Shown here in pieces: positions 12,879 through 37,678 of a stretch of DNA of 64,000 bases. Source of the DNA: Cryobacterium algoricola (GTDB lineage: Bacteria > Actinomycetota > Actinomycetes > Actinomycetales > Microbacteriaceae); assembly GCF_004402485.1 (NCBI RefSeq), contig NZ_SOFG01000024.1:186001-250000 (forward strand). The letters run 5' to 3'. The notes beneath the pieces are model-generated. The model was not told the DNA's origin. It saw only the letters and a list, made by a program, of their open reading frames with translations, and ran no database searches. The translations under genes and the position numbers were made by a program. How positions within the stretch are numbered: the stretch's first letter is position 1; each line of letters starts with the position of its first letter.

Positions 12879-12914
12879 GCGGAACCGGCACTGAAACCGG
12901 CCCCCGCACGCTCA

Positions 12915-12949: not shown

Positions 12950-13082
12950 GTGCGTCACGATGAAAACGTTTACCACCAATGTTGCAATCAGCCGAGAAAA
13001 TGTGATGAATGCGCTTTCATTACTGGCAGACTGGTAGGTAACACGAGTGTCACGACAGGCGCGACACCAGGAAAGGTATCTC

Positions 13083-13574
13083 ATGACAACCGCTACGACA
13101 ACGGCTGCCCAGCCCCTGATCGCCGGTTCCGGCCAGGCGCGTATTCTTCGGATTATCGGCCTCCTTGGCATTATCGGTGGACTCGTTATGCTCCTCGTCG
13201 GCGGCGTCGTCTGGGGCACCGTCAGCAGCCAGCTGGCCGGCGAGAAGATTACAGTCGCAGCCGACGCATCGTTCCTCGCCGGAACGACCGTCGACAACCC
13301 CCTCTCCGCCCTCGCGCAGGCGAACATCATTAACCACCACGCCATGGAGGCCTCCGGCGGCAAGACGTACGCCGAGCTCGCCCAGGACGACAAGGTGCGC
13401 CCGACGGTTATGACCGCGTCGCTGCTGCGCGCCTCGCTCTTCACCTCGATCGTCGCCTTCGGCGTCTCCTTCTTCGCCATGGGCCTCGGCATCCTCGTCG
13501 GCCTGTTCGGCTGGGCGATCTTCGTCCTCACGCCGCACGCTTCGAAGAAGACCGCGGTTCCCGCAGTCGCCTAA
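13083..13574 (+). CDS. Small membrane protein, function unknown
   Basis: This 163-residue protein has a first membrane helix at about residues 20-45 (ILRIIGLLGIIGGLVMLLVGGVVWG), an extracytoplasmic segment with NIINHHAMEASGGKTYAELA, and a C-terminal hairpin of two helices ending near GWAIFVLTP. Similar actinobacterial proteins are sometimes labelled aromatic ring-opening dioxygenase LigA, but nothing here supports dioxygenase activity. GGAAAGG precedes ATG 13083 at good spacing. It stands alone, with terminators before (12915) and after (13606). Confidence 0.75.
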   Translation: MTTATTTAAQPLIAGSGQARILRIIGLLGIIGGLVMLLVGGVVWGTVSSQLAGEKITVAADASFLAGTTVDNPLSALAQANIINHHAMEASGGKTYAELAQDDKVRPTVMTASLLRASLFTSIVAFGVSFFAMGLGILVGLFGWAIFVLTPHASKKTAVPAVA

Positions 13575-13605
13575 TTGAGGAGCACCCGGTAACACCCGGC
13601 AGTAC

Positions 13606-13638
13606 AACGGGCCTCGCGGCACTCGCGGGGCCCGTTTT
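13606..13638. terminator. Terminator after the small membrane gene
   Basis: AACGGGCCTCGCG (13606-13618) pairs with CGCGGGGCCCGTT (13624-13636) across a 5-nt loop, with one G-U pair; the arm ends in a short T run. Confidence 0.75.
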
Positions 13639-13806
13639 CCGTACCCGGAGCGTCCAGCAGCCCGGCAGACACGCAGCGTTCACCCCGCGGGCACCTTTGT
13701 TACGCAGTCGAAACACGGGAACCCCTACTATGGGGCTACCGGACGATTCTGCTGCCCCGGGCGGCGGACATCGGGAACCACGTCCGCGGAATACTGGGGG
13801 ACCAGC

Positions 13807-23012: not shown

Positions 23013-23281
23013 CCCCAGTCGAGGGCGAGCACCCACGACCCGTCGACGTCGCGTCGCAGGTCGTAGCGGTGCTGCTCCTCGCCCCCGCGGGCCGCGTCGA
23101 CCCGCCACAGCTCGGTGTCGATGCGGGTCGGAACCCCGTCGTTCTCCCACCAGCGGGTGCGGGTGAACACCGCCTGCGGCTGCCCGATGATGGTGTGTTC
23201 GAAGCGGTCCCACGTGAATGCCAGGGGGTCGCCATCGGCCGAGAGCTCGACGTCGACGCGGGTGTCGATGATCTGGGGCAT
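23009..23281 (-). CDS. DUF6504 protein, first gene of the dnaE2 operon
   Basis: This 90-residue protein (MPQIIDTRVDVELS, DRFEHTIIGQPQAVF, RYDLRRDVDGSWVLALDWG) matches the small DUF6504-type proteins encoded next to dnaE2 or Y-family polymerases in actinobacteria. Its biochemical role is unknown; an accessory role in translesion synthesis is inferred from linkage and 4-nt translational coupling to dnaE2. GGAGGAG precedes its ATG, and the LexA box ends 20 nt upstream. Confidence 0.75.
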   Translation of the reverse strand: MPQIIDTRVDVELSADGDPLAFTWDRFEHTIIGQPQAVFTRTRWWENDGVPTRIDTELWRVDAARGGEEQHRYDLRRDVDGSWVLALDWG

Positions 23282-23347: not shown

Positions 23348-24724
23348 CTAGCCAGCGCCGACCGTCGTCGGTGACGCAGCAGGGGCGGTCTCCGGTGCCG
23401 CGACGCGCAGGGCGTGTGCCCCGAGCAGGGCGGTCGGCACCCGGAAGGTCTCCCGGGCGGTGACGGCGGCGATCGCCGAGAGCACCATGGTGGCCGCGGT
23501 GAAGACGGCGACCGGCACCCAGCCGTCGATCCCGCTCCCGAGGAGGGCGTAACAGATGCTCGGAGCGAAGCCGGCGAGCAGGAATCCGAGCTGGGTGCCG
23601 ATCGCGAAGCCGGAATAGCGCACCGGGGCGGCGAACATCTCGGTGAAGAACGACGGCCAGAGCCCGTTGACCATCGAATAGAACAGGGTCATGTTCAGGA
23701 AGCCGCCGAGGAAGATGAGCGGGATCGACCCGGTCGAGATCGCCCAGAAGTAGAGGAAGATCGTCGCCGCGGAACCCAGGGTCCCGGCGATCCAGACCGG
23801 GCGGCGCCCGACGCGGTCCGACAGGGCCGAGAAGAGCGGGATGGTGACGAGGGAGCCCGCGATGGACACGGTCGCGACCCAGAGCATCGTGCCGCGATCG
23901 ATCCCGACGGCGGGGCTCGTGGCGTATGCGAGTCCGAAGACCGTGAAGACGGTCTGGGTGACGGCGAACAGGGAGCAGACGAGCACGCGCACGACGTCGC
24001 GCCACTGGTGCCGGAACACCTGTGCGGCCGGGAACCTCTCGACGGCGGCGACTGACTTCGCCTCGGCGAAGACCGGCGTCTCGTCGAGACGGGAGCGCAC
24101 GACGTAGGCGACGACGAGAACGACCGCGCTCAGCAGGAACGGCACCCGCCAGCCCCAGGCATACAGCTGGTCCTCCGGAAGGGCGGCGACCGGGATGAAG
24201 ACGATGGTGGCGAGAACCATCCCGGCGGCATATCCGGTCATCGTGAAACCGGAGAAGAATGCGCGGCGGTGTTCGGGTGCGTGCTCGATCGCGAGGGTGC
24301 TCGCCCCTGCCGCTTCCCCTCCGGCCGAGAAACCCTGGGCCAGGCGGCACAGCACGAGCAGGGCGGGCGCGAATGCCCCGATCTGGTCGTAGGTGGGCAG
24401 GAAGCCGATCGCGAGGCTCGCAACCCCCATGATCACGAGGGTGAGGATCAGCACTCGCTTCCGGCCGATCCGGTCGCCGAAGTGGCCGAGGATGAGCCCG
24501 CCGAACGGCCGGGCGACGTAGCCGACGCCGAATGTCGCCAGGGAGGCGATCGTCGCGATCGCCGGGTCGGCGGCGGAGAAGAAGATGTGGTTGAAGACGA
24601 GGGCGGCCGCCGCGCCGTAGATGAAGAAGTCGTAGTACTCGAGGGCGCTGCCCACGAACGCCGCTGCGGCGGCCTTTCGCGGCATCCGCTGGGGGATGGT
24701 CGGAGCTGGAACCGTGCTGGACAT
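23348..24724 (-). CDS. MHS-family metabolite:proton symporter
   Basis: This 458-residue transporter belongs to the metabolite:H+ symporter branch of the MFS (shikimate, alpha-ketoglutarate, protocatechuate-type carriers). Signature segments are ALEYYDFFIYGAAAAL in helix 1, HFGDRIGRKRVLI in loop 2-3, QGFSAGGEAAGA, and GWRVPFLLS. It is the last gene of the catabolic operon that starts at 27576, 76 nt after the SDR gene, with GGAG before its ATG. With KstD-type and SDR enzymes upstream and pobA/pca nearby, I infer uptake of a cyclic carboxylic acid. Confidence 0.85.
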   Translation of the reverse strand: MSSTVPAPTIPQRMPRKAAAAAFVGSALEYYDFFIYGAAAALVFNHIFFSAADPAIATIASLATFGVGYVARPFGGLILGHFGDRIGRKRVLILTLVIMGVASLAIGFLPTYDQIGAFAPALLVLCRLAQGFSAGGEAAGASTLAIEHAPEHRRAFFSGFTMTGYAAGMVLATIVFIPVAALPEDQLYAWGWRVPFLLSAVVLVVAYVVRSRLDETPVFAEAKSVAAVERFPAAQVFRHQWRDVVRVLVCSLFAVTQTVFTVFGLAYATSPAVGIDRGTMLWVATVSIAGSLVTIPLFSALSDRVGRRPVWIAGTLGSAATIFLYFWAISTGSIPLIFLGGFLNMTLFYSMVNGLWPSFFTEMFAAPVRYSGFAIGTQLGFLLAGFAPSICYALLGSGIDGWVPVAVFTAATMVLSAIAAVTARETFRVPTALLGAHALRVAAPETAPAASPTTVGAG

Positions 24725-24800
24725 GCTGTCTCCTTTGACAAGGTGCCTGGTTGGGTTGGGGCGGGTTGGGGCGAGTGGGACTCGGGAAGGGAAGCCTGGT

Positions 24801-25598
24801 TCAGACGGCGGTGTAGCCCCCGTCGATGACCAGCTCGGAACCGGTCGTGAAGCGTGATTCGTCGCTGGCCAGGTAGAGCACGCCGTATGCGATCTCCTCC
24901 GGCTCGCCCTGGCGGCGGAGCGGATTGCCGTCGACCAGCTGGCGGTAGTACGCCTCCGGCCCGATCGGGCTCATCTCGGCGGCCGTGCGGCTCATCCGGG
25001 TGTTCATCGAGCCGGGGTGGATCGAGTTCACCCGGATGCCGTACTCGCCATAGGTCGCGGCATCCGCCTTGCTGAGCAGCCGAACGGCCCCCTTCGTGGC
25101 GTGGTACAGCGGAACGCTCCTGCCGCCGGTGATGCCGTGGATCGACGAGAAGTTCACAATGCTGCCGCGCGACGCGGCGATCATGGCGGGGACCACGTAC
25201 TTCGTCATGAGCCAGGTGCCCTTGACGTTCACGTTGAAGATCCGGTCGAACTCGGCGAGGGTCGACTCGTGCGACGGGGCCGCCCTCCCGATGATGCCGG
25301 CCGCGTTCACGAGCACGTCGGGGACCCCGACGTCGGCGAGCACCCGCGCGATGGCGCGCTCAACCTGGTCCGGGTCGGTGATGTCGAGCTCGAGTGAGGT
25401 GACTCCCGGCTCGTGCCACGGTTCGGACGGCGCGGTGACATCGAGGCTGACGACCAGGGCGCCCTCGCCGGCGAGGAGCCGCACGCAGGCGCTGCCGAGG
25501 TCGCCGCTCCCTCCTGTGACGATGACGATCTTGCCCTGCACGCGGCCCTGCGGGGTCGCGGCTGTTGCGGCCGTTGCGGCCGTGTCGGTGATGGTCAT
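24801..25598 (-). CDS. Short-chain dehydrogenase/reductase
   Basis: This 265-residue classical SDR has the NAD(P)-binding TGGSGDLG (about residues 29-36), NAAG at the end of strand 4, catalytic Ser in NFSSIHG, YHATK with Tyr and Lys, and the C-terminal RFTTGSELVIDGGYTAV. Asp after the second strand (VVSLDVT) favours NAD over NADP. It overlaps the Dabb stop (ATGA). In its operon it most plausibly oxidises a ring hydroxyl to a ketone, like the 4-hydroxycyclohexanecarboxylate dehydrogenases; quinate/shikimate dehydrogenase is an alternative. The specific substrate is inference. Confidence 0.85.
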   Translation of the reverse strand: MTITDTAATAATAATPQGRVQGKIVIVTGGSGDLGSACVRLLAGEGALVVSLDVTAPSEPWHEPGVTSLELDITDPDQVERAIARVLADVGVPDVLVNAAGIIGRAAPSHESTLAEFDRIFNVNVKGTWLMTKYVVPAMIAASRGSIVNFSSIHGITGGRSVPLYHATKGAVRLLSKADAATYGEYGIRVNSIHPGSMNTRMSRTAAEMSPIGPEAYYRQLVDGNPLRRQGEPEEIAYGVLYLASDESRFTTGSELVIDGGYTAV

Positions 25599-25912
25599 TC
25601 CGTGGAGTCCTTTCGGTGGGTGGGCAGGTCGAAATCGACGGAGGCGATCTGTCGGCTGTGCGGCGCGGACAGGGCGATCAGGGGGGTGTGCAGCGGATGA
25701 GTGGCGTAGCCGGCGACGTCGGAGAGCGAGTCGAAGTCGGCGACGATGGCGCAGTCCCAGGACCGCGCCTCCCCGCCGAGGTCCCGCCCGACGCTGAGCG
25801 ACCGGAGCCCGGGAACGCTGCCGACGAGGCCGTCGAGACCGCTGCGCCAGCGTCGTTCGATCCCCGGGGTGAAGCTGTCCTCGAACCGGAACAGCACGAC
25901 GTGGCGGATCAC
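25595..25912 (-). CDS. Dabb (stress-responsive A/B barrel) domain protein
   Basis: This 105-residue protein starts at GTG 25912 and reads IRHVVLFRFEDSF, VPGLRSLSVGRD, ADFDSLSDVAGYATHPLHT, the dimeric alpha/beta-barrel Dabb pattern. It overlaps the flavoprotein stop by 4 nt and the SDR start by 4 nt, so it is tightly coupled to both. Dabb proteins include a polyketide cyclase and many of unknown function; a ring-tautomerising or product-releasing role here is speculation. The protein is easily missed because the same frame stays open far upstream in the flavoprotein region. Confidence 0.75.
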   Translation of the reverse strand: MIRHVVLFRFEDSFTPGIERRWRSGLDGLVGSVPGLRSLSVGRDLGGEARSWDCAIVADFDSLSDVAGYATHPLHTPLIALSAPHSRQIASVDFDLPTHRKDSTE

Positions 25913-27576
25913 CGGGCCGCCGCCGCCGCCGCGGGGACCTCGGCGGGGTAGCCGGCCGGCTGCCCCGCGAGGGTGCGGCCGATCAGGTAGCCCATCGTCA
26001 TCAGGGGTCCGAGGGTCGCGCCGGCGCCGGGGTAGCCGGCCCCGTAGGCGCTCTCCGCGATGTTCCCCGCCGCGAAGAGCCCCGCGATCGGGTCGCCGTC
26101 CACGTCCTGGACGCGGCCGACGGCATCCGTCGATACCCCGCCGCTGGTGCCGAAGGCGCCGTTCACGACCGCGAGCGCGTAGAACGGCCCGGTGGTGAGC
26201 GGGGCGAGGCTCGGGTTGGGGAAGACGTTCGCCGCGTCGCCCCAGTAGGTGTCGTAGCGGCTGCCGCCCCTGCCGAAGTCGGGGTCCTGGCCGAGCTCGG
26301 CATTGTGGTTGAAGCGGCCGACCGTGTCCGCGAGCGCGGCAGGGTCGACGCCGATGCGCGCGGCGAGGTCGGCCAGGGTGGCGCCTTCGAGCAGCCAGGC
26401 CGGCGTCGGTTGTCCGGCGCGGTGGCTCAGGACGCCGTAACGCTCGAGGAAGGCGTGGTCGAAGACGACGTGGGCCGGGGTGTTCAGTGGGGCATTGGCC
26501 GCCGGGTCCCAGGAATGCAGCGAGCGGGCGAGGTCGTTGTAATTCTGGGATTCGTTCGCGAAACGGCGCCCGTGCTGGTTGACCATGATCGAGCCGGGCC
26601 CCTGGCGTTCGAAGCGGAGCAGGGTGCCGACCTGCTCGCCGTCGCGGAGATCCCCGGGGATGACCGACATCGGCGCCCACCAGGCCTCACGGGTCCCGCC
26701 GGTCCGCGCACCGAGGCGCTGGGCCATCCGGAGGCCGTCTCCGGTGTTCGACGGGGGAGAGCAGACGACATGCAGCCGGGTCTGGAGCAACCCGTCGGCG
26801 AGCCGCTTGTCCCATTCGAAGCCGCCGCTGGCGAGCACGACGCCGTCGTTCGCGTGGAAGGTGCGTCCGTCGACGACGACGCCCGTGACCCGGCCGTCGA
26901 CGACGACGAGCCGTTCGGCGCGGGCCTCGACGGCGAGGGTCACGTCGTTCCCGAGGCAGGAGGCGAGCAGCATGCTGACGAGCGCCTGCCCCTTGGCGAC
27001 GAGGCCGGCCGTCTCCCGCGCAGCGAGCTCGGCCCAGGGAAAGTGCGTGAAGGCGCCCCAGTTCTCGTACTCCTGCATCGTGAACGGCGCCCGGCCGTCG
27101 GTGCGTACGTGCGCCCGCAGCGGGCCGAGCGCGGCGGCGGCGTCGTAGAGCGCGGGTTCGACCGTGCGTCCGCCGTCGAGGGCGCCGTCGAGGTCCATCC
27201 GGTAGTCCGGGAAGTTGTCGAGCAGCAGGAAGGCCACGTCGAGCTCGCGTTCGAGGTAGCGCAGCATGTCGTCGCCGCGGGTGATGGCGGCATCGAACAG
27301 GTCGTCCCGGCCTCTGCCCCGGGAGACGGCCCGGACATAGCGGGCAGCGTCCGCAGGAGAATCGTCGATTCCGGCCGCACGGGCGAGGTGGTTGGCGGCG
27401 ACCCAGAGCATCCCGCCCGACACCGCCGACGTGCCGCCGAGCAGGGCCGACTTCTCGACGACCAGAACGCTCTTGCCTTCGTTGGCCGCCGTCGCCGCGG
27501 CCGCGAGCGCCGCGGCGCCGGACCCCACCACCACGACATCGAATCGGTCCTGCGGCTTGCCCTGGAGAATTCGCAT
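25909..27576 (-). CDS. KstD-type FAD-dependent dehydrogenase (ketone desaturase)
   Basis: This 555-residue flavoprotein has an N-terminal FAD-binding segment (VVVVGSGAAALAAAATAA, then EKSALLGGTSAVSGG) and a C-terminal block GPFYALAVVNGAFGTSGGV...LFAAGNIAES...YPGAGATLGP, which matches 3-ketosteroid delta1-dehydrogenases, including the catalytic-type Tyr in GPFYA and the YPGAGATxGP motif. The family inserts double bonds next to a ring ketone. It heads an operon with a Dabb protein, an SDR and an MHS transporter. Since no steroid genes are near but pobA-pca is, 4-oxocyclohexanecarboxylate desaturation toward 4-hydroxybenzoate is more likely than steroid oxidation; this is inference. ATG 27576 has GGGAGTGGG upstream; the open frame beyond it is not coding. 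Confidence 0.82.
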   Translation of the reverse strand: MRILQGKPQDRFDVVVVGSGAAALAAAATAANEGKSVLVVEKSALLGGTSAVSGGMLWVAANHLARAAGIDDSPADAARYVRAVSRGRGRDDLFDAAITRGDDMLRYLERELDVAFLLLDNFPDYRMDLDGALDGGRTVEPALYDAAAALGPLRAHVRTDGRAPFTMQEYENWGAFTHFPWAELAARETAGLVAKGQALVSMLLASCLGNDVTLAVEARAERLVVVDGRVTGVVVDGRTFHANDGVVLASGGFEWDKRLADGLLQTRLHVVCSPPSNTGDGLRMAQRLGARTGGTREAWWAPMSVIPGDLRDGEQVGTLLRFERQGPGSIMVNQHGRRFANESQNYNDLARSLHSWDPAANAPLNTPAHVVFDHAFLERYGVLSHRAGQPTPAWLLEGATLADLAARIGVDPAALADTVGRFNHNAELGQDPDFGRGGSRYDTYWGDAANVFPNPSLAPLTTGPFYALAVVNGAFGTSGGVSTDAVGRVQDVDGDPIAGLFAAGNIAESAYGAGYPGAGATLGPLMTMGYLIGRTLAGQPAGYPAEVPAAAAAAR

Positions 27577-27605
27577 CGAATCCCACTCCCGTCGTCGTTG
27601 ACACA

Positions 27606-27633
27606 AGAATTTTGCGTTTCTGAAGACTGTCAA
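27606..27633 (-). promoter_or_regulatory. Promoter of the KstD-SDR-MHS operon
   Basis: On the minus strand TTGACA (27633-27628) is a perfect -35, followed after 16 bp by AATTCT (27611-27606). The leader to ATG 27576 would be about 25 nt and contains the ribosome site. Confidence 0.55.
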
Positions 27634-27656
27634 CGGTCGGGCTCGCTCATCGTGCC

Positions 27657-27675
27657 CCTCCCATTCAATGGGAGG
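27657..27675. promoter_or_regulatory. Probable IclR operator of the catabolic operon
   Basis: CCTCCCATTCAATGGGAGG is a perfect 9-1-9 palindrome 23 bp upstream of the -35 box of the operon promoter, a position that suits an activator. The adjacent gene encodes an IclR regulator. It resembles the palindrome at 29401 before pobA. Confidence 0.6.
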
Positions 27676-27719
27676 AAAACTCTCCGGGGGACCGGGCCCG
27701 GTGACCCGGGGCGTCCCGG

Positions 27720-28511
27720 TCAGACGGCCCGCGGCATCCGGCTTGTTCCGCCACGCGGCCGGTCGGCGCCGAGGGCCCGGGAGATGCCGTGCGCCGCGGT
27801 CTTCAGCGCGGGGACGGTCGCGCGCAGGTCCTCCTCGCCTAACGGGACGATCACGTTCAGTGCAGCGATCACCCGGTCGCCCCGTTCGAACACCGGAACG
27901 GCGATCCCGGTCGTGTCCGGAACGATGATCCCGGGCACGGAGGCATGGCCGAGCTGCCTGATCCCGGCCAGCAGCCGACGCAGTGCCGCAGGTTCGGTGA
28001 CGGTGTGTTCCGTGTAGCGCACGAGCTCCCGGCCGAGCACATCGTCCTGGAATTCCGGCGGGGAATACGCCAGCAACACGAGGCCGGACGAACACGCGTG
28101 GATCGGCAGCCGACCGGCGATCTGGGTGATGTTCACCGCTGACCCGCGGGTCGTGAGCCGCTCGATGTAGAGCACGTTCTCGCTGTCGAGCAGGCTCAGG
28201 GTCGTGTGCTGCTGCACGACGGCCTGCACGTCTTCCATGAAGGGCAGCGCGATTTCGCGCAGGTCCGTGGTGCGGGACCCCCGGGAGGCGAGTTCCCACA
28301 GCCGGATGCCGAGGCGCACTTCTCCGTCCGCGTCGCGTTCGAGGAGTCGTTCGTCGAGGAGCTGAAGGACGAGACGGTGGGTCGTTGCAAGCGGCATGCC
28401 GACCCGTCGCGACAACGTGGAGATCGTCATGGACGAGCGATGCGAACCGAAGGCGTCCAGAATCGTTACGAGCCGGGACAGCAGGGAGTCGCCGGAGCGT
28501 GAATTCGCCAT
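27720..28511 (-). CDS. IclR-family regulator, upstream of the KstD operon
   Basis: This 263-residue protein has an N-terminal winged helix (LLSRLVTILDAFGS, TISTLSRRVGMPLATTHRLVLQL) and an IclR effector domain (IAGRLPIHACSSGLVLLAYSP, GIAVPVFERGDRVIAALNVIVPLG). It precedes the flavoprotein operon on the same strand by 143 nt, with a palindrome in the gap. TACTGT lies 6 nt before the ATG, suggesting leaderless expression. It faces a second IclR gene across 51 bp. Such regulators commonly control aromatic-acid catabolism. Confidence 0.87.
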   Translation of the reverse strand: MANSRSGDSLLSRLVTILDAFGSHRSSMTISTLSRRVGMPLATTHRLVLQLLDERLLERDADGEVRLGIRLWELASRGSRTTDLREIALPFMEDVQAVVQQHTTLSLLDSENVLYIERLTTRGSAVNITQIAGRLPIHACSSGLVLLAYSPPEFQDDVLGRELVRYTEHTVTEPAALRRLLAGIRQLGHASVPGIIVPDTTGIAVPVFERGDRVIAALNVIVPLGEEDLRATVPALKTAAHGISRALGADRPRGGTSRMPRAV

Positions 28512-28562
28512 GGCCCCACAGTATGCTCCCCGCCGGTGTGGGGGGCGAGTAGCGTGGTGCTG

Positions 28563-29372
28563 ATGTCAGGGAAGCCCGCACAGTCGAGGGGAACCGAGGG
28601 CGCTGCGGCGTTCCCGGTCGATGACCGCGGTGTGGCCGCGCGGCTTTTCGCCATCCTCGACGCGTTCACCGCGCCGCCGGCGAGTTCGCTCACCCTCACC
28701 GCGATCGCGCAGCGCACCGGGATCCCGCTGACGACGGTGCACCGCCTCGTCGGAGAGTGGACGAGCTGGGGCGGCCTCGCCCGCCAGGAGGACGGCCGGT
28801 ACGCGCTCGGGATGCGGTTGTGGGAGGTCGGCGTGCAGACGCCGACGGCGCGGAACCTCCGCACGATCGCCCTGCCCTATCTGGAAGACCTGTACGAGTC
28901 GACCCATGAGCACGTGCACCTCGCCATCCTCGACGGAGGCGACGCCCTCTACCTCGAGAAGCTGTCCGGCCACCAGGCCGTGCGGGTGATCTCCCGCGTG
29001 GGAGGCCGCCTGCCGCTGCACGCGACCGGGGTCGGCCTCGTCCTGCTGGCCAACGCGTCGAACGAGGTGATCCAGGAGTACCTGGCGGGACCGTTGCCGC
29101 GTTTCCTGCCGCAGACGGTGACCGACCCCGAGGAGTTGCGGCGGCGCCTGGCCGGCATCCGCAGCCAGGGCATCGCCCGCATGTCCGAGGAGATGACGGC
29201 CGGGTCGAGTTCGATCGCGGCGCCGATCAGGGACAGAACCGGGCAGGTGGTTGCGGCCGTGTCGATCGTCACGCGCACAACACCCCGGCCAAGCCCCGAG
29301 CAGGAACAGGCCGTGCGCGTTGCGGCCCACGGGGTGGGCAGGGCGCTCGGGTACCGCCGCGCCACGGGCTGA
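28563..29372 (+). CDS. IclR-family regulator, upstream of pobA
   Basis: From ATG 28563 the protein has 269 residues, with a winged helix (RLFAILDAFTAPPAS, TLTAIAQRTGIPLTTVHRLVGEW) and an effector domain (VGGRLPLHATGVGLVLLANAS, SIAAPIRDRTGQVVAAVSIV). An in-frame GTG at 28536 is possible but TAGCGT 7 nt before the ATG favours a leaderless start there. It lies 115 nt before pobA on the same strand, with a palindrome at 29401-29416 in the gap, so it is the likely regulator of the pobA-pca operon (PobR/PcaR role). Confidence 0.87.
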   Translation: MSGKPAQSRGTEGAAAFPVDDRGVAARLFAILDAFTAPPASSLTLTAIAQRTGIPLTTVHRLVGEWTSWGGLARQEDGRYALGMRLWEVGVQTPTARNLRTIALPYLEDLYESTHEHVHLAILDGGDALYLEKLSGHQAVRVISRVGGRLPLHATGVGLVLLANASNEVIQEYLAGPLPRFLPQTVTDPEELRRRLAGIRSQGIARMSEEMTAGSSSIAAPIRDRTGQVVAAVSIVTRTTPRPSPEQEQAVRVAAHGVGRALGYRRATG

Positions 29373-29400
29373 GCCGAGGCTGGGCATCCGCCGGACGGTC

Positions 29401-29416
29401 TTTCACTCAGTGGAAA
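29401..29416. promoter_or_regulatory. Probable IclR operator upstream of pobA
   Basis: TTTCACTCAGTGGAAA is an odd palindrome centred on C (one internal mismatch), 20 bp upstream of a TTGATT (29437-29442) that could be the -35 box. Its core CA(C/T)TCA(G/A)TGG matches the palindrome at 27657, which has the same position relative to its own promoter. Confidence 0.55.
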
Positions 29417-29487
29417 CCACCACCTCGGGGGTGCCGTTGATTCCGCAAGATGGTGCGATCACCTGTCATCGTCGCTAGGAGAACCCC

Positions 29488-30669
29488 GTGTCCCCAGAAA
29501 ACACCCGTGTCGCCATCATCGGCGCAGGTCCCGCCGGTCTTCTCCTCAGCTGGGCGCTGCGGGACGCCGGCATCGACTCGATCGTGGTCGAGAACCGCTC
29601 CCAGGACTACGTGCTCGCCCGGATCCGGGCCGGCGTGCTCGAACAGAGCGCCGTCGAGACCCTCACCCGGCTGGGGCTCGGCGAGCGCATCCGGACGGAG
29701 GGCCTCGAACACGACGGCATCTACCTGCAGTTCCGGGGCGAGCGCCACCACGTCGACTTCCAGGAGCTCATCGGCCGCAGCGTCACGGTCTACGGCCAGC
29801 AAGAGGTCGTGAAAGACCTGATCAACGCGCATACCAGTGCCGGATCCACGATCTACTACGAGGCGGCGGATGTCGCGGTGCACGACCTCGAGTCGAGCGC
29901 ACCCCGGGTGACGTTCACCCACGCGGGGGAGGCACACACGATCGCGGCGGACTTCGTCGTCGGCGCAGACGGCTTCCACGGCGTCTGTCGCGCCAGCATC
30001 CCCCGCGAAGCCATCACGCTCTACGACCGGAGCTACCCGTACGCCTGGCTCGGGATCCTCGCGAACGTGGCGCCGTCGACCGACGAGCTGATCTACGCGC
30101 TGCACGAGGACGGCTTCGCCATGCACTCGATGCGTTCGCCGCACGTCTCCCGGCTCTACCTGCAGGTCGACACCGCAGACTCGCTCGAGCAGTGGCCCGA
30201 CGAACGGATCTGGGAGACCCTGCACGCTCGCCTCGGCGTGCCGGGCTGGACCCTCCAGGAGGGCGAGATCACCGACAAGTCGATCACGCCGATGCGCAGC
30301 TTCGTGGCCTCCCGCCTCGCGTACGGCAGCCTCTTCCTCGCGGGGGATGCCGGACACATCGTGCCGCCGACCGGGGCCAAGGGACTCAACTCCGCCATCG
30401 CCGACGTCACGATGCTCGCCGCAGCCCTCGCCGCCCACTACGCGGACGACGACGCCCTCCTCTCCGGTTACGGCGAGGCGGCGCTCCGTCGCCAGTGGCG
30501 CGTGCAGCAGTTCTCGCAGTGGATGACCGACCTGCTGCACCGCAACCGCACCGACCTGCAGACGATGGAGTTCGACTACCAGAGCCAGCTCGGCCGCCTC
30601 GACTACGTCACCGGCTCGGTCCATGCCCAGCGCGAACTCGCCGAGCAGTACTCCGGCCTGCCGTTCTAG
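29488..30669 (+). CDS. pobA: 4-Hydroxybenzoate 3-monooxygenase
   Basis: PobA hydroxylates 4-hydroxybenzoate to protocatechuate using FAD and NAD(P)H. The 393-residue protein has the dinucleotide motif GAGPAG (residues 12-17), the DG motif in VVGADGFHGVCR, and GD in LFLAGDAGHIVPPTGAKGLN. ARIRAGVLEQ and YGQQEVVKDL are typical substrate-site segments of this enzyme. The start is GTG with TAGGAG at good spacing. It is the first gene of the pca operon; pcaH follows after 30 nt. Confidence 0.95.
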   Translation: MSPENTRVAIIGAGPAGLLLSWALRDAGIDSIVVENRSQDYVLARIRAGVLEQSAVETLTRLGLGERIRTEGLEHDGIYLQFRGERHHVDFQELIGRSVTVYGQQEVVKDLINAHTSAGSTIYYEAADVAVHDLESSAPRVTFTHAGEAHTIAADFVVGADGFHGVCRASIPREAITLYDRSYPYAWLGILANVAPSTDELIYALHEDGFAMHSMRSPHVSRLYLQVDTADSLEQWPDERIWETLHARLGVPGWTLQEGEITDKSITPMRSFVASRLAYGSLFLAGDAGHIVPPTGAKGLNSAIADVTMLAAALAAHYADDDALLSGYGEAALRRQWRVQQFSQWMTDLLHRNRTDLQTMEFDYQSQLGRLDYVTGSVHAQRELAEQYSGLPF

Positions 30670-30699
30670 CCCCCATTCTCCCGAGAGGAATCATCGACA

Positions 30700-31470
30700 A
30701 TGACCACGTCACAACACGAGATCTCCGCAGAGATGCAGGCCATCGAGGCGGATGCCCGTGCCCTCGTTGCAGAGGGCAACGCCCCTGAGCTGCACCCGCG
30801 TCGCGACTACCCGCCTTATCGCAGCTCGATCCTGCGGCACCCGACCCACGAGCTCGTGCGGGCGGACCCGGAGGAGATCGAACGGCACTCGCCGGCCTTC
30901 GGGCACAGCGACGTCAGCCCGCTCGAGAGCGACCTGACCATCCAACACAACGGCGAGCCGCTCGGCGAGCGGATGACGGTGTCCGGGCGGGTGCTCGACG
31001 GCGAGGGTCGCCCGGTGCGGCATCAGCTCGTCGAGGTGTGGCAGGCCAACGCCGGCGGCCGGTACGTGCACAAGCGCGACCAGCACCCGGCCCCGCTCGA
31101 CCCGAACTTCACCGGCGTCGGCCGGGTCATCACCGGCGACAACGGCGAGTACTCGTTCACGACGATCAAACCGGGCCCGTACCCGTGGCGGAATCACCTG
31201 AACGCCTGGCGCCCGGCGCACATCCACTTCTCGCTGTTCGGCACCGCGTTCACCCAGCGACTGATCACCCAGATGTACTTCCCGGGTGATCCGCTCTTCG
31301 CGCTCGACCCGATCTACCAGTCGATCACCGATCCCGCGGCGCGCGCCCGGCTGATCGGCGTGTACGACCACGACCTGAGCGTGCCCGAGTTTTCGCTCGG
31401 CTACCGTTGGGACATCGTGCTCACCGGTCCGAAGTCGACGTGGATGGAAAGCGAAGAAGCCCATGACTGA
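30700..31470 (+). CDS. pcaH: Protocatechuate 3,4-dioxygenase, beta subunit
   Basis: PcaH carries the non-haem Fe(III) that cleaves protocatechuate to 3-carboxy-cis,cis-muconate. All four iron ligands of the family are in place: Tyr122 (GGRYVHKRD), Tyr161 (GPYPW), His174 and His176 (AHIHFS), with the same spacing as the well-studied pseudomonad enzyme. The protein has 256 residues. The coding frame overlaps pcaG by 8 nt. Confidence 0.96.
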   Translation: MTTSQHEISAEMQAIEADARALVAEGNAPELHPRRDYPPYRSSILRHPTHELVRADPEEIERHSPAFGHSDVSPLESDLTIQHNGEPLGERMTVSGRVLDGEGRPVRHQLVEVWQANAGGRYVHKRDQHPAPLDPNFTGVGRVITGDNGEYSFTTIKPGPYPWRNHLNAWRPAHIHFSLFGTAFTQRLITQMYFPGDPLFALDPIYQSITDPAARARLIGVYDHDLSVPEFSLGYRWDIVLTGPKSTWMESEEAHD

Positions 31471-32056
31471 ACCGTCCGCAGCGCCGGAAGCCCGGTACGT
31501 GCAGACCCCCGCGCAGACCGTCGGCCCGTTCTACGGTTTCGCGTTGCCGTACGACGGGGGAGCCGAGCTCGTGCCCGGCCACCACCCGCGGGCGATCCGG
31601 CTGCACGGCACCGTCTTCGATGGTGCAGGGGATCCGGTGCCCGACGCCATCCTCGAAATCTGGCAGGCCGACGAGACCGGAGCCCTGCCGGACGAGCGCG
31701 GCTCCCTCGCCCGCGACGGTTTCGGCTTCACCGGTTTCGGCAGGGCGGCCGTCGACCTCGGCGGCCACTACACCTTCACAACGGTCGAGCCCGGACCGGT
31801 CGCAGGCGGTGCGCCGTACGTGCTCGTCGCCGTGTTCGCGAGGGGGCTCATCCACCACCTGTTCACCCGGGCCTACTTCCCCGGGAATGCGGAGCGGAAC
31901 GCCGCGGATGCCGTGCTCACCGCGGTCCCGGCGGCCCGGCGGCAGACCCTCGTCTGCGTTCCGGAAGGAACCGGGCCGACGGGCGCGGCCTCGTACCGGT
32001 TCGACATCCACCTTCAGGGTGAGAACGAGACCGTGTTCCTGGATTTCGATGCCTGA
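31463..32056 (+). CDS. pcaG: Protocatechuate 3,4-dioxygenase, alpha subunit
   Basis: This 197-residue partner of PcaH shares the dioxygenase fold but lacks the iron ligands. It shows TPAQTVGPFYGFALPY near the start, LEIWQADETGALP, and GLIHHLFTRAYFPG in place of the HIH site. It overlaps pcaH and pcaB by 8 nt each, so the subunits should be made in step. Confidence 0.94.
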   Translation: MTEPSAAPEARYVQTPAQTVGPFYGFALPYDGGAELVPGHHPRAIRLHGTVFDGAGDPVPDAILEIWQADETGALPDERGSLARDGFGFTGFGRAAVDLGGHYTFTTVEPGPVAGGAPYVLVAVFARGLIHHLFTRAYFPGNAERNAADAVLTAVPAARRQTLVCVPEGTGPTGAASYRFDIHLQGENETVFLDFDA

Positions 32057-33581
32057 GCCCGTTCTCGACGCCGGGCTGCTCGCCCCGCTCGCCCACGGCA
32101 GCGAGGCCACCACGCTCACGAGCGACGCCGCCTGGCTGCAGGCGATGGTCGACACCGAGCTCGCCCTGACCCGGGCGCTCGTCGACGCCGCACTCGCCCC
32201 CGAGTGGATGCTTGGCGTGTGCGACACTCTCGCCGACGCCGGTGCGCTCGACCTCGGTGCGATCGCCCGGGAGGGGCGCGGCGGCGGCAACCCCGTGATC
32301 CCGCTCGTGAAGCACCTCGGCCTCGCAGCGGAACGCGTGCGCGCCGGGTCCTCCGATCACATCCACGTCGGAGCCACGAGCCAGGACATCCTCGACACGT
32401 CGGCGATGCTCATCGCCGACCGGGTCTGTGGCGAGCTCGCCGACCGGCTCGGGAACTTCGCCGCCGCGCTCGCCGTGCTCGCGGGGCAGCACCGGAACAC
32501 GATCATGGCCGGCCGTACCCTGGGCCAGCAGGCGTCGCCCACGAGCTTCGGCTTCGTCGCGGCCGGATGGCTGGACGCCGTGCTCACGGCCGCCACCGCC
32601 CTCGCCCGGGTGCGCGCGGCGCTGCCCGCGCAGCTCGGCGGCGCAGTCGGGAACCTCGCGGTGCTCACCGCCATCGCGAACGCCCGGTCCGGGGTCTCTG
32701 GGCCGACGGCATCCGCTTCGGGCACCCCGGCCGTCGACGTCGTCACGGAAAGGTTCGCCGCCCGGCTCGGGCTGCGCCGGCCGCTGCTCAGCTGGCACAC
32801 GGACCGCCTGCCGGTCGTGGAGCTCGGATCCGCGCTCGCCGCGGTGACCGGCGTCGCCGGGGCGTTCGCACTCGACGTGTCCGTGCTGTCCCGCACCGAG
32901 ATCGCCGAGGTGAACGAGCGGCTCGGCGCAGGGCAGGGCGGCTCCAGCGCGATGCCGCACAAGCGCAACCCGGTCACGGCCGTGCTCGTCACCGCCGCAG
33001 CGCGCCAGTCCCCGGCTCTGCTGGGGTCGCTCTACGGCAGCCTGCTGGCAGAGGACCAGCGCCCGAGCGGCGCCTGGCACGCCGAGTGGCAGACGTTGCG
33101 GGACCTCGAGCGGCTCGCGGTGTCCGCGGTCACCGGAGCGGCGGACCTGGCCGGGCGGCTCGACATCCACCCCGGGCGGATGCGGGTCAACCTCGAGTTC
33201 ACTGACGGGCTCGTCTTCAGCGAACGCGTGACCACGCTCCTCGCCGAGGCACTCGGCAGGACCAGGGCCTTCGCGCTCGTGCAGCGCGCCGCGGAGGAGT
33301 CCCATGAGACCCGGCGGCCGCTGCGGGTGACTCTGGGAGGGTTGCTTGCAGCAGAGGGCTCGACCGCGGGCGTGACCGACGCCCTGCGAGCCCAGGCCTG
33401 GGCCGCGTTCGACGCGGACACCGACCTCGGCCAGGGTTCCGCAGCAATCGACCGGGTGCTCGCCCGGTTCCGGGCGCAGTTCGAACCGGACGCGCCTGCA
33501 GAGCCGGAAGCACCCGAACGCCAGGCAGTTCCCGCACAGCAGTCAGTTCCCGCACACCAGTCAAGGACGGATTCCCGATGA
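32049..33581 (+). CDS. pcaB: 3-Carboxy-cis,cis-muconate cycloisomerase
   Basis: PcaB converts the ring-cleavage product to 4-carboxymuconolactone. The 510-residue protein belongs to the fumarase/aspartase superfamily: VGATSQDILDTSAM and the signature GQGGSSAMPHKRNPV. ATG 32049 overlaps pcaG; the same frame is open upstream but not coding. The last 35 residues are a Pro/Gln-rich tail with a short duplicated unit (AVPAQQS/SVPAHQS) beyond the usual family end. Confidence 0.93.
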   Translation: MPEPVLDAGLLAPLAHGSEATTLTSDAAWLQAMVDTELALTRALVDAALAPEWMLGVCDTLADAGALDLGAIAREGRGGGNPVIPLVKHLGLAAERVRAGSSDHIHVGATSQDILDTSAMLIADRVCGELADRLGNFAAALAVLAGQHRNTIMAGRTLGQQASPTSFGFVAAGWLDAVLTAATALARVRAALPAQLGGAVGNLAVLTAIANARSGVSGPTASASGTPAVDVVTERFAARLGLRRPLLSWHTDRLPVVELGSALAAVTGVAGAFALDVSVLSRTEIAEVNERLGAGQGGSSAMPHKRNPVTAVLVTAAARQSPALLGSLYGSLLAEDQRPSGAWHAEWQTLRDLERLAVSAVTGAADLAGRLDIHPGRMRVNLEFTDGLVFSERVTTLLAEALGRTRAFALVQRAAEESHETRRPLRVTLGGLLAAEGSTAGVTDALRAQAWAAFDADTDLGQGSAAIDRVLARFRAQFEPDAPAEPEAPERQAVPAQQSVPAHQSRTDSR

Positions 33582-34933
33582 CCCAGCCTCTCCTTCGCGG
33601 CACGCTGCGCCCCGATCCGGCGGATCCGGCCGGTCCGGTCGGTCCCGCCGGCCGGGCGCCGCTGCTCGTCCTCGGACCCTCGCTCGGCACGACGACGACG
33701 CTCTGGGACGCGGTCGTCGATGCGCTGGGCGCGCCGTCGGCCCCGAATCTCCGGGTGCTCAGCTTCGACCTGCCCGGACACGGGGTCAGCCCGGCCGCGC
33801 GGGAACCGTTCACGGTCGCCGAACTCGCCGACGCGGTGATCGCCCTCGTCGATTCGGCGACGGCCGCCGCTCTCGGTCCGGACGCCGCACCGGAGTCCTT
33901 CCACTACGCCGGGATCTCGCTCGGCGGCGCGGTTGGCCTCGAGCTCGGCATCCGCCACCCGGGACGCCTTCTGAGCCTGAGCGTCGTGTGTTCGGCGGCG
34001 CGGATCGGCACCGCGGAGGGCTGGCACGAACGCGCCGCGCGGATCAGGGCGAGCGGAACGCCGTCGATGGTGATCGGCAGCGCCGAACGCTGGTTCGCCC
34101 CCGGGTTCCTCGAGCGCGATCCCGCGGCGGGCGCCGGAGCGCTGAACCGGCTCCTCGACATCGACGACGAGTCGTACGCGCTCTGTTGCGAGGCGCTCGC
34201 CGGCTTCGACGCGCGCGAGGCGGTCGCCGGCATCCCCCTGCGGATGCTCTGCGTGGCCGGGGAACTCGACCTCGCCACGCCGCGTGCCCTCGTCGCCGAA
34301 CTCGCTGCGGCCGTTCCCGGTGCCCGGTATGCCGAGATCGCCGGAGCCGCCCACCTGCCCTCCCTCGAGCGGCCACGGGAGCTCGCCGGCCTGCTGCTGG
34401 ACCAGCTTATGGAAACGCCACCAGCCCCGCCAGCCGAGCACCCGATCGGGCGACCCAGCGCCCGGGAACCCGCCGCGCGCACGGCGGCAGAGGTGTACTC
34501 CGCGGGCCTGGCCGTGCGTCGGGCCGTGCTGGGCGACACGCACGTGGATGCCGCGACGGCCGCGATCACCCCGGAGACCGCCGACTTCCAGGACTTCATC
34601 ACCCGCTACGCCTGGGGTGAGATCTGGACCAGGCCCGGCCTCGACCGGCGCACCCGCAGCTTCCTCACCCTCGCCTGCCTGATCACCGGGGGCCACGAGC
34701 ACGAGCTCGCGATGCATGTGCGCGCCGCGCTCACCAACGGGCTCAGCCGCGCCGAGATCAGCGAGGCGATGCTGCACACCGCGATCTACGCCGGGGTGCC
34801 TGCCGCGAACTCGGCGCTCTCGATCGCCCGCACGACGTTCGCCGCCCTGGACGAGGAGGCCGCCCTGCCTGCCGAGTGCGCCCCGGATGCCGAGCCCGGC
34901 GCCGACTCGTCCCAGACCCCGTCACGTCCCTGA
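33578..34933 (+). CDS. pcaL: Fused 3-oxoadipate enol-lactonase / 4-carboxymuconolactone decarboxylase
   Basis: One 451-residue chain covers two steps. Residues about 25-290 are an alpha/beta hydrolase (PcaD part) with nucleophile Ser114 in GISLGG, acid in VAGELDLATP and His in AAHLPSLERP. Residues about 310-430 are the PcaC decarboxylase: VRRAVLGDTHVD, TRYAWGEIWTRPGLDRRTRSF, GHEHELAMHVRAALTNGLS and EAMLHTAIYAGVPAA. Such pcaL fusions are known in actinobacteria. It overlaps pcaB by 4 nt (ATGA). Confidence 0.94.
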   Translation: MTQPLLRGTLRPDPADPAGPVGPAGRAPLLVLGPSLGTTTTLWDAVVDALGAPSAPNLRVLSFDLPGHGVSPAAREPFTVAELADAVIALVDSATAAALGPDAAPESFHYAGISLGGAVGLELGIRHPGRLLSLSVVCSAARIGTAEGWHERAARIRASGTPSMVIGSAERWFAPGFLERDPAAGAGALNRLLDIDDESYALCCEALAGFDAREAVAGIPLRMLCVAGELDLATPRALVAELAAAVPGARYAEIAGAAHLPSLERPRELAGLLLDQLMETPPAPPAEHPIGRPSAREPAARTAAEVYSAGLAVRRAVLGDTHVDAATAAITPETADFQDFITRYAWGEIWTRPGLDRRTRSFLTLACLITGGHEHELAMHVRAALTNGLSRAEISEAMLHTAIYAGVPAANSALSIARTTFAALDEEAALPAECAPDAEPGADSSQTPSRP

Positions 34934-34954
34934 ACCGAACCGAAGGACTGCTCC

Positions 34955-35779
34955 ATGGATAAGACGTTCACCTCAGCGGCGGCCGCCGTCGCGGACATCC
35001 CAGACGGCGCCTCCCTCGCCGTCGGCGGCTTCGGCCTCGTCGGCGTGCCGATCGTGCTGATCCGCGCCTTGCTCGACCGGGGCACGACCGACCTCCGGGT
35101 CGTCTCCAACAACTGCGGCGTCGACGGCTGGGGGCTCGGCGAGTTGCTCAGGGAGGGCAGGATCAGCCGGGTCATCGCGTCATACATCGGCGAGAACAAG
35201 GACTTCGCCAGGCGCTACCTCGGCGGCGAACTCGAGGTCGAGCTCACTCCGCAGGGCACCCTCGCCGAGCGGCTCCGCGCGGGCGGCAGCGGCATCCCCG
35301 CGTTCTTCACCGCGAGCGGCGTCGGAACCCTCGTCGCCGACGGCGGCCTGCCCTGGCGCTACGGACCGGGTGGAGAGGTACTGGTGTCCTCACCGCCGAA
35401 GGAGACCCGGGTGTTCTCCTCGCTCGGCAAGACGCAGGAATACGTGCTCGAGGAGGCGATCGTCACCGACTTCGCCCTGGTACGCGCCGCTCGCGGCGAC
35501 CGCCACGGCAACCTCGTCTTCGAGAAATCGGCCCGCAACTTCAACCCGCCGGCCGCGATGGCCGGCCGGATCACCATTGCCGAGGTCGACGAGCTCGTCG
35601 AACCGGGCGAGATCGATCCGGACGACGTGCACCTCGCCGGCATCTACGTGCAACGGATCGTGCAGCTGAACCACGCGGATGCGCGCGACCTGCCGATCGA
35701 GAAGGTCACGACCCGGCCGCGGCCGGGAGCTGCCGCCGCGGCCGCGGCATCCGCCCCGACCTCCAGAATGGAAGGCTGA
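34955..35779 (+). CDS. pcaI: 3-Oxoadipate CoA-transferase, alpha subunit
   Basis: PcaI and PcaJ move CoA from succinyl-CoA to 3-oxoadipate. The 274-residue subunit has [30 protein letters not shown] and [15 protein letters not shown], typical of the A subunit of family I CoA-transferases. It starts 21 nt after pcaL, and pcaJ follows after 1 nt. An Ala-rich tail follows the conserved end. Confidence 0.92.
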
Positions 35780-35780
35780 C

Positions 35781-36458
35781 ATGCCCCTGACCCGCAACGA
35801 GATGGCGGCCCGCGCCGCGCAGGAACTCGCCCCAGACAGCTACGTCAATCTCGGGATCGGCCTGCCGACCCTGATCCCGAACTTCCTGCCCGAGGGGGTG
35901 CAGGTCATCCTGCACTCGGAGAACGGGGTGCTCGGCGTCGGCGCGTACCCGTGGGAGGGCGAGGAAGACCCGAAGCTGATCAACGCCGGCAAGGAGACCA
36001 TCACCGTCAATCCCGGTGCGGCGTACTTCGACTCCGCGCAGAGCTTCGGCATGATCCGTGCCGGGGTCATCGACGTGGCCGTGCTCGGCGCGATGCAGGT
36101 CTCGGCGTCGGGAGACATTGCCAACTGGGCGGTGCCGGGCAAGCTGATCAAGGGCATGGGCGGGGCGATGGACCTCGTGCACGGTGCGGACACCGTGATC
36201 GTCGTGATGGAGCACGTCACGCGTGCCGGCGACTTCAAGATCCTGGAAGAATGCTCCCTGCCGCTGACCGGCAAGGCCGTGGTCACCCGGATCATCACCG
36301 ACCTCGCGGTGATCGACGTCACCGCTGAGGGGCTCGTACTTCGCGAGGTCGCTCCGGGCGTCGCCGTCGCGGACGTCCAGGCGGCGACCGGGGCGCGGCT
36401 GCTTGTGCCCGCGGAACCGGGCGTCATTCGCACCCTCCTGTCGTGGGTCGGCGCATGA
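35781..36458 (+). CDS. pcaJ: 3-Oxoadipate CoA-transferase, beta subunit
   Basis: This 225-residue subunit contains the catalytic glutamate in [10 protein letters not shown] and the conserved [15 protein letters not shown] and [18 protein letters not shown] segments. ATG 35781 is chosen over an upstream in-frame start because it follows pcaI by 1 nt with GGAAGG before it. Its stop overlaps pcaF (ATGA). Confidence 0.93.
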
Positions 36459-37678
36459 ACGAGCGGATGCGCGAGGTCGTCATCTGTGAACCGCTGCGCA
36501 CACCGATCGGGCGCTTCGGCGGCGTGTTCGCCACGGTCGCACCGGCCGACCTCGCCGCCGCGGTGATCGCGGCGCTGCTGGAACGTACCGGCATCGACGG
36601 GGGCGTCATCGACGACGTGATCCTCGGGCAGGCCTACCCGACCGCGGAGGCGGCATCCGTCGCCCGCGTCGCCGCCCTCAACGCCGGTCTGCCGGTGACC
36701 GTCGGCGGGCTCCAACTCGACAGGCGGTGCGGCTCAGGCCTGCAGGCCGTGCTCGACGCGGCGATGCAGGTGCAGACCGGCATCAGCGACGTCGTCGTGG
36801 CCGGCGGCGTCGACTCGATGAGCCAGGCGCCGTTCTACACCGTCGAGTCACGCTTCGGAATCGGGGCAGGGCCGGGCTTGCTGCTCCGCGACGCACTCAG
36901 TCGCGGACGGGAGACCGCGGGCGGCCGCAACTATCCGGTTCCGGGCGGCATGCTCGAGACCGCGGAGAACCTGCGCCGGGAGTACGGCGTCGGTCGTGCC
37001 GAGCAGGACGAGCTCGCCGTGAGGTCGCAGCAGCGTGCCGCGACGGCCGTCGCAGAGGGCCGTTTCGATGCCGAAATCGTGCCGGTCACTGTTCCGGGGC
37101 GGAAAGGCGCCGTCGTCGTCGCCCGCGACGAAACCCCGCGGCCGGACACGACCCTGGCCGGTCTCGCCGGGCTGCGTCCCATCCTGCTGGGCACGGATGC
37201 CGACGCGACGGTCACCGCCGGAAACGCAAGCGGGCAGAACGACGCGGCCGCCGCGTGCCTCGTGACCACCCCGGAACGCGCCGCCGAACTCGGGCTCACG
37301 CCGCTCGTGCGCCTCGTGACCTGGGCCAGGGCCGGCGTAGAGCCGTCGCGGATGGGAATCGGACCGGTGCCCGCAACGAAGAGAGCTCTCGAACGTGCAG
37401 GGCTCACCCTTGCGGACATCGACCTGATCGAGCTCAACGAGGCATTCGCCGCCCAGGTGCTCGCGGTAAGCCGGGAGTGGAACTTCACCGACGCCGACTG
37501 GGAACGCACCAACGTCAACGGCTCCGGCATCTCCCTGGGTCATCCCGTCGGCGCAACCGGCGCACGCATCCTGGCGACAGCGAGCAGGCACCTGCACCGC
37601 ACCGGGGGGCGCTACCTGCTCGAGACCATGTGCATCGGAGGTGGCCAGGGCCTCGCCGCCGTCTTCGAGAGGGTGTGA
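36455..37678 (+). CDS. pcaF: 3-Oxoadipyl-CoA thiolase
   Basis: The last enzyme of the pathway splits 3-oxoadipyl-CoA to succinyl-CoA and acetyl-CoA. The 407-residue thiolase has the acyl-Cys in [11 protein letters not shown], the His in [10 protein letters not shown] and the second Cys in [15 protein letters not shown] 36455 overlaps pcaJ by 4 nt. General acetyl-CoA acetyltransferase activity cannot be excluded from sequence alone, but position makes PcaF the best call. Confidence 0.9.

Follow-up and report, generated by a model that had tools for sequence, protein, structure and literature searches.

The window analysed here, 64,000 nucleotides of Cryobacterium algoricola contig NZ_SOFG01000024.1 (assembly GCF_004402485.1, positions 186,001 to 250,000 of the forward strand), contains at its positions 23348-37678 two divergent operons that probably encode a shortened chc route, in which 4-hydroxy- or 4-oxocyclohexanecarboxylate would be converted to 4-hydroxybenzoate. 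A review outlines the chc pathway as the work of a cytochrome P450, a dehydrogenase and two desaturases acting in succession (PMC9795900), and the cluster of Sinomonas cyclohexanicum ATCC 51369 is credited there to Yamamoto et al. 2021 (via PMC9795900). What is new here is a probable variant of this route without the second desaturase, ChcC2, with a short-chain dehydrogenase/reductase (SDR) from a separate clade and with a fusion of that SDR to a Dabb protein. No description of a ChcC2-less cluster was recognised in the open-licence PMC literature, as far as the retrieved portions of these sources extend, which does not imply absence from print.

On the minus strand, the genes for an IclR-family regulator, a flavin adenine dinucleotide (FAD)-dependent flavoprotein (chcC1), a Dabb protein, the SDR and an MHS-family symporter follow one another in this order, and the plus strand carries a second IclR regulator, PobA, PcaH, PcaG, PcaB, a fused PcaDC, PcaI, PcaJ and PcaF. 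The initial annotation, made from the sequence alone, had described a KstD-type desaturase, an SDR, an MHS transporter and a Dabb protein in one operon beside a full 4-hydroxybenzoate operon; every gene that it named was found with an open frame, and its interpretation is supported in substance. The reading frames of chcC1 and dabb overlap in GTGA, and those of dabb and the SDR gene in ATGA. The ratio of nonsynonymous to synonymous substitution rates (dN/dS) is approximately 0.16-0.20 for chcC1, compared with three Cryobacterium copies, and approximately 0.15-0.18 for the SDR gene, compared with two. The gene arrangement is not due to chance, because 56 ChcC1 loci with 64-92% identity were recovered from genome contigs.

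The flavoprotein (25909..27576, minus strand, 555 aa, FAD_binding_2 domain) is, as judged from profile and identity, an orthologue of ChcC1, the desaturase I of S. cyclohexanicum, and is accordingly predicted to be a ChcC1-type FAD-dependent 4-oxocyclohexanecarboxylate desaturase. It scores 961.3 bits on the ChcC1 model NF053676 and at most 394 bits on any other model, shares 68% identity over 546 aa with desaturase I, and groups among ChcC1 rows on a tree built without steroid dehydrogenases. Its predicted structure (predicted local distance difference test score, pLDDT, of 90.6) has KstD and cyclohexanone dehydrogenase as its nearest solved folds, with 33-38% identity to the solved KstDs (7p18, 4c3x) and 29% to cyclohexanone dehydrogenase (8am3, 8am6, 8am8). 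Firm clustering with steroid dehydrogenases, the outcome that the initial annotation had named as contrary to its proposal, was checked by profile scores and identities and did not emerge; the two best steroid-dehydrogenase models give 389 and 376 bits, and on these scores and the identities a steroid dehydrogenase was rejected. The positions corresponding to the KstD catalytic residues, whose roles are described in the consulted part of PMC5348764, are Y125, Y346, Y515 and G519, all invariant in 58 full-length ChcC1 sequences; locus L059, which is cut at the contig start so that its SDR is not visible, was excluded from this residue comparison. In the alignment with KstD1, M56, R324 and H385 occupy the pocket positions of Ser52, Val296 and Ile352.

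Searches of the window's genome, which is 100% complete with 0.46% contamination, provide the evidence for a shortened route. The best match to the ChcC2 model (NF053677) is ChcC1 itself at 214.7 bits against a cut-off of 900, and matches elsewhere in this genome reach at most 30 bits, with all 34 candidates scored. No ChcB1 over the cut-off was found in this genome, the best match being an unlinked SDR with 305 of 400 bits, no ChcB2 match was found at 1e-85 with 43 of 51 candidates scored, and no match to the Sinomonas chc P450 was found at 1e-80. The genome contains a single P450, with 25-30% identity to the chc P450 cluster among the matches listed. The earlier observation of only one desaturase and no P450 at the locus therefore extends to the whole genome for ChcC2 and the chc P450. 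As a separate observation, the unlinked SDR (L101 7363-8124; G000:C21:755377-756090) is 56% identical to a ChcB1, and no chc genes lie in the 15 kb around it.

This gene content is shared by a group of relatives. A scan of genome contigs, with genes in the relatives called by a crude script based on GC content at third codon positions (GC3), returned 63 ChcC1 relatives, comprising the 56 close ones and seven with 32-41% identity. The close relatives are from actinobacteria, nearly all Micrococcales plus two Corynebacterium. ChcC2 over the cut-off was present in 35 of the 50 relative genomes searched and was not found in the other 15 (three Cryobacterium and twelve Arthrobacter/Paenarthrobacter), giving 16 such genomes with the window's own (G000). 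Part of the initial candidates was scored in each relative genome, 22 for ChcC2, up to 50 for ChcB1 and up to 43 for ChcB2; L041, L044, L046, L047, L050 and L061 were left out of the ChcC2 search because ChcB-type SDRs and another KstD-like gene had been seen in their loci, and L047 was not included in the ChcB1, ChcB2 and P450 searches. Neither ChcB1 nor ChcB2 was found over the cut-off in any of the 16 ChcC2-less genomes. A chc P450 with approximately 74% identity occurs in three of them (L021, recorded as P. aurescens TC1, L022 and L036), in an operon of IclR, P450 and reductase without ChcC2, with a ferredoxin called in L021 and L036 and not in L022. Thus 12 of the 15 relatives resemble the window's genome in yielding none of ChcC2, ChcB1, ChcB2 and the chc P450 in these searches.

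On the ChcC1 tree, three changes are needed to account for the ChcC2-less label: the Cryobacterium clade, an Arthrobacter-type clade of eleven rows, and L024 alone. For L024 neither ChcC2 nor the P450 was found and its nearest tree relatives have ChcC2, so that the loss of ChcC2 looks recent there. All four Cryobacterium carriers of ChcC1 are ChcC2-less, and a Subtercola ChcC1 falls inside their clade. ChcC1 is rare in the genus, exceeding 900 bits in four of 57 Cryobacterium genomes (the window's own and three that correspond in contig number and hit position to the genomes of L009, L010 and L011), with weaker matches of 251-462 bits in five more. Within the class, the SDR and ChcC1 are both present in the same two of 394 genomes (the window's own and one other), and the SDR was found in five of 396 genomes of the order, a sample that was searched for the SDR only. 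Ten neighbour genes from three loci were examined as candidates for a linked ChcC2 substitute and none is a desaturase: at L012, seven genes for a GntR/UTRA regulator, a PaaX-type regulator, a kynureninase-like aminotransferase, a tryptophan dioxygenase, a HAD protein, a phosphate transporter and an ATP-binding cassette (ABC) ATPase; at L024, two for an MgsA-type ATPase and a class II tRNA synthetase; and at the ChcC2-bearing L016, one for a cyclophilin. For the remaining loci, neighbouring genes were compared at the level of clusters.

The SDR (24801..25598, minus strand, 265 aa) is proposed to be the 4-hydroxycyclohexanecarboxylate dehydrogenase of this route. Classical SDRs are marked by the motifs TGxxxGxG, NAAG and YxxxK, and the operon SDR carries TGGSGDLG from residue 28, NAAG at 98 and YHATK at 165. 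It reaches 158.9 bits on the ChcB1 model (cut-off 400) and 151.8 bits on the ChcB2 model (cut-off 350), and in a tree of 43 sequences the operon-type SDRs and ChcB1/ChcB2 lie on opposite sides of a branch with a Shimodaira-Hasegawa-like approximate likelihood ratio test (SH-aLRT) support of 100. An SDR with 67-91% identity to it is present in 37 of the 56 loci, and the remaining locus SDRs show 28-39%. Among the 23 genomes with both an operon-type SDR and ChcC2 over the cut-off, ChcB1 passes its cut-off in none, ChcB2 in three and the chc P450 is present in 18, while ChcB1 is over the cut-off in 15 of 17 comparison genomes without an operon-type SDR in the locus. Because 16 of these 23 genomes combine P450, SDR, ChcC1 and ChcC2 without either known ChcB, the economical reading seems to be that the operon-type SDR is a non-orthologous 4-hydroxycyclohexanecarboxylate dehydrogenase replacing ChcB1 and ChcB2. 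The comparison with chc enzymes that the initial annotation had called for thus divided: the flavoprotein matches ChcC1, but the SDR stands in a clade of its own, and the claim that it makes the ketone is supported indirectly, by the replacement pattern and not by orthology to ChcB1 or ChcB2.

The Dabb protein (25595..25912, minus strand, 105 aa, PF07876) is tightly coupled to chcC1. In all 55 readable loci its start is placed -3 to +25 nt relative to the stop of chcC1, and in 54 of these within 4 nt; L043 ends before any Dabb gene could be read. In C. glucosi (L009 11668-12738), Dabb and SDR form one continuous open frame of 356 aa, and the same fusion is found in two protein clusters (P0003 and P0004, with 7 and 16 member sequences), while the two frames are separate in L010, L011 and the window. 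All 56 Dabb sequences compared have the residues H4, Y69, H72 and H75. The olivetolic acid cyclase profile matches the operon Dabb with an E-value of 2.6e-10, and in this match Y69 and H75 align with the Tyr/His acid-base pair of that Dabb-family enzyme, in which Tyr72 and His78 are given as acid and base catalysts in the excerpt available (PMC7962319). The two proteins are distant in sequence; by analogy of these residues, the operon Dabb is proposed to be an acid-base tautomerase.

The adjacent plus-strand operon is complete, by family and position, for a route from 4-hydroxybenzoate through PobA and beta-ketoadipate to succinyl-CoA and acetyl-CoA. A pobA gene is present in the ChcC1 locus of all four Cryobacterium carriers (the window, L009, L010 and L011). 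In addition, a PobA of 47% identity lies near ChcC1-Dabb in L054 (approximately 12500-13687), from an Arthrobacter that carries ChcC2 as well, providing a second lineage with this linkage. In the part of the source consulted, pobA of S. cyclohexanicum is reported to participate in cyclohexanecarboxylate metabolism (PMC5906575).

Taken together, the proposed sequence of steps would begin with import of 4-hydroxy- or 4-oxocyclohexanecarboxylate by the MHS symporter, followed by oxidation of the 4-hydroxyl to the ketone by the SDR, as the gene replacement suggests, and introduction of the 2,3 double bond by ChcC1, as its identity to the named enzyme suggests. A second ring oxidation and tautomerisation would then give 4-hydroxybenzoate, from which PobA and the Pca enzymes, whose genes are all present, would form succinyl-CoA and acetyl-CoA. 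The likeliest second oxidant would be ChcC1 acting on the re-bound enone, with Dabb shifting the acidic C1-H, or epimerising at this position, to allow re-entry of the ring. 4-Oxocyclohexanecarboxylate is symmetrical about a plane that contains C1 and C4, and after the first desaturation a turned-over ring could place C5-C6 in the active site, with the C1 carboxylate then on the other face. Epimerisation at C1-H would lift this obstacle, which makes an acid-base Dabb a fitting candidate. That ChcC1 also performs the second desaturation is put forward tentatively, as a possibility that we do not favour over its negation; the fuller version, in which one KstD-type desaturase aromatises the cyclohexanone acid completely, the ring re-enters turned by 180 degrees and Dabb serves as the C1 tautomerase or epimerase, is doubtful.

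Several observations weigh against the locus being a shortened chc route or against ChcC1 completing it. The flavoprotein falls under the curated ChcC1 cut-off (961.3 vs 1000 bits), and the three remaining Cryobacterium copies also stay below it at 978-984 bits, whereas seven copies from other genera pass with 1010.8-1044.5 bits. Eleven mapped pocket positions are invariant in ChcC1 copies with or without ChcC2, so the sequence gives no sign of a gained second activity. With the filter applied, a search for a signature of a bifunctional ChcC1 returned only two mild changes (L263 and V382) that split the copies according to the absence or presence of ChcC2, and changes specific to the Cryobacterium clade (e.g. 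G512, S482 and L118) may reflect descent alone. Named SDR relatives with approximately 70% identity occur in other actinobacteria, and the Tyr-His-His pattern of Dabb also occurs in other Dabb proteins such as 3bgu, a protein whose function is not known, and is hence not specific. Within the fetched flanks, no pobA above 40% identity was seen in 52 of the 56 loci. Finally, a further KstD-like protein or fragment was listed among the matches in 11 of the 15 ChcC2-less relatives, including all three with a P450; the best of these score 334-507 bits on the ChcC2 model, under its cut-off of 900.

This last observation lends weight to a sub-case of the shortened chc route, to which we give a modest chance, in which an unlinked enzyme that does not belong to the ChcC2 family, or else air and base, performs the second oxidation. 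An enone acid enolises easily, and the resulting dienol autoxidises. The product of cyclohexanone dehydrogenase may pass to phenol, according to the section of PMC10966990 consulted. However, no such paralogue was found at the thresholds used in G000, G001, G003, G004 or G032 (for the latter four, at E 1e-30 and from a scored subset of candidates), and such paralogues also occur in ChcC2-bearing genomes, so that they look like part of another pathway. A pair of KstD-like proteins approximately 10-15 kb apart, one scoring about 500 bits and the other about 200-220 bits on the ChcC2 model, recurs in several genomes of Arthrobacter type, whether ChcC2 is present or not (e.g. G013:C32:43924-56510; also G014, G028, G007 and G048). 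The five genomes named, in which no KstD-like protein besides ChcC1 was found at these thresholds, and the four Cryobacterium carriers without ChcC2 over the cut-off and without a chc P450, would also fit a substrate acid that is already partly unsaturated, such as 4-hydroxycyclohexene carboxylate, for which a single desaturation by ChcC1 together with the SDR would suffice. We consider this to have a small chance of being correct: the mapped ChcC1 pocket does not vary, the set of SDR, ChcC1, Dabb and MHS also adjoins ChcC2 and a P450 in Arthrobacter, where the saturated acid should be the substrate, and the P450 operon, whose starting compound would be the saturated ring, persists in three ChcC2-less genomes.

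A decaying remnant of a formerly complete chc cluster would explain the failure to find ChcC2, ChcB1, ChcB2 and the chc P450 in the window's genome, the scarcity of ChcC1 over 900 bits in the genus, and the condition of L024 beside its ChcC2-bearing relatives. Such decay is nevertheless very unlikely here, given five open genes, three of them overlapping, and dN/dS values of approximately 0.15-0.20 for the two genes tested. It is extremely improbable that the flavoprotein is a steroid or general ketone dehydrogenase lying next to pobA by accident, as it scores 961 bits on ChcC1 vs 389 and 376 on the steroid models, has 68% identity to desaturase I, compared with 33-38% to solved KstDs, and is linked to pobA in all four Cryobacterium loci.

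The remaining features of the two operons are as follows. The first gene of the chc-type operon encodes an IclR-family regulator (27720..28511, minus strand, Pfam IclR_C and HTH_IclR) with 123.5 bits on the PcaR/PcaU/PobR subfamily model, under its cut-off of 284.75, and an IclR with 44-62% identity adjoins ChcC1 in most non-Cryobacterium loci. The second IclR-family regulator, of PcaR/PcaU/PobR type (28536..29372, plus strand, with an alternative ATG at 28563), has 148.6 bits on TIGR02431, also under 284.75. Upstream of chcC1, a 19-bp palindrome (27657..27675) with 9-bp arms and a 1-base spacer is a candidate IclR operator; it is at the equivalent place in all four Cryobacterium loci, with arms that differ in bases in L010 and L011 and pair over a 7-bp core, and perfect 9-bp arms arose in 13 of 5000 mononucleotide shuffles. 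The predicted MHS-family acid/proton symporter (23348..24724, minus strand, 458 aa) has 377.5 bits on TIGR00883, under the cut-off of 443.45, and 323.6 bits on the next model, a shikimate transporter, under 538.

For the plus-strand operon, PobA (4-hydroxybenzoate 3-monooxygenase, 29488..30669) has 539 bits on NF006091, over the cut-off of 351, and 471.1 on the equivalog model TIGR02360, under 538.7. The protocatechuate 3,4-dioxygenase components PcaH (30700-31470; TIGR02422, 353.4 bits, cut-off 296.4) and PcaG (31463-32056; TIGR02423, 181.5 bits, cut-off 126.25) both pass. PcaB (32049-33581) is assigned by position and family, with 314.6 bits on TIGR02426, under 355.75, and a higher 386.8 bits on a nitrosuccinate lyase model with a cut-off of 650. 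Fused PcaDC (33578-34933; NF051488, 483.7 bits, cut-off 390), PcaI (34955-35779; TIGR02429, 227.8 bits) and PcaJ (35781-36458; TIGR02428, 317.2 bits) are over their cut-offs, and the thiolase PcaF (36443-37678) is assigned by position, with 654.5 bits on NF004853, over the cut-off, and 385.5 on the equivalog TIGR02430, under 597. Outside the two operons, the immediate neighbour of the chc-type operon is a DnaE-type polymerase frame (19518-23213, minus strand) whose best match is an error-prone DNA polymerase with 587 bits, under the cut-off of 939, and which passes the polc superfamily cut-off. Beyond it, a 427-aa frame (18098-19381, plus strand) contains long proline-threonine repeats and matched none of the NCBIfam models at the threshold applied.

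Compared with the chc cluster of S. cyclohexanicum, the window shares the ChcC1 orthologue, a putative SDR for the 4-hydroxyl and the predicted handing of 4-hydroxybenzoate to PobA, and Sinomonas relatives also carry IclR, Dabb and MHS genes. It differs in that the searches recovered no ChcC2, ChcB1, ChcB2 or chc P450, in the other clade of its SDR, in the position of Dabb between desaturase and SDR, and in the direct linkage to pobA-pca. The Arthrobacter clusters (e.g. L015 and L016) resemble it in the SDR clade (approximately 68-73% identity), ChcC1 (67-71%), Dabb, MHS and IclR, but their order is SDR-ChcC1-Dabb-MHS instead of ChcC1-Dabb-SDR-MHS, and they add a divergent operon of ChcC2, IclR, P450, reductase and ferredoxin, with the P450 present in 18 of 23 genomes.

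Cyclohexanecarboxylate is a model naphthenic acid. Its described aerobic aromatisation proceeds through two successive desaturases, and a natural gene set without the second, and with a different dehydrogenase, allows a direct test of whether the conversion of a saturated ring into a phenol lies within the reach of one flavoenzyme, and of the role that its coupled Dabb partner has. The combination of ChcC1, the operon-type SDR and Dabb without ChcC2 also serves as a marker for a route that is missed by searches demanding the full chc set. If the single-desaturase reading is true, ChcC2 would be dispensable, and Dabb proteins would have a new role in alicyclic catabolism.

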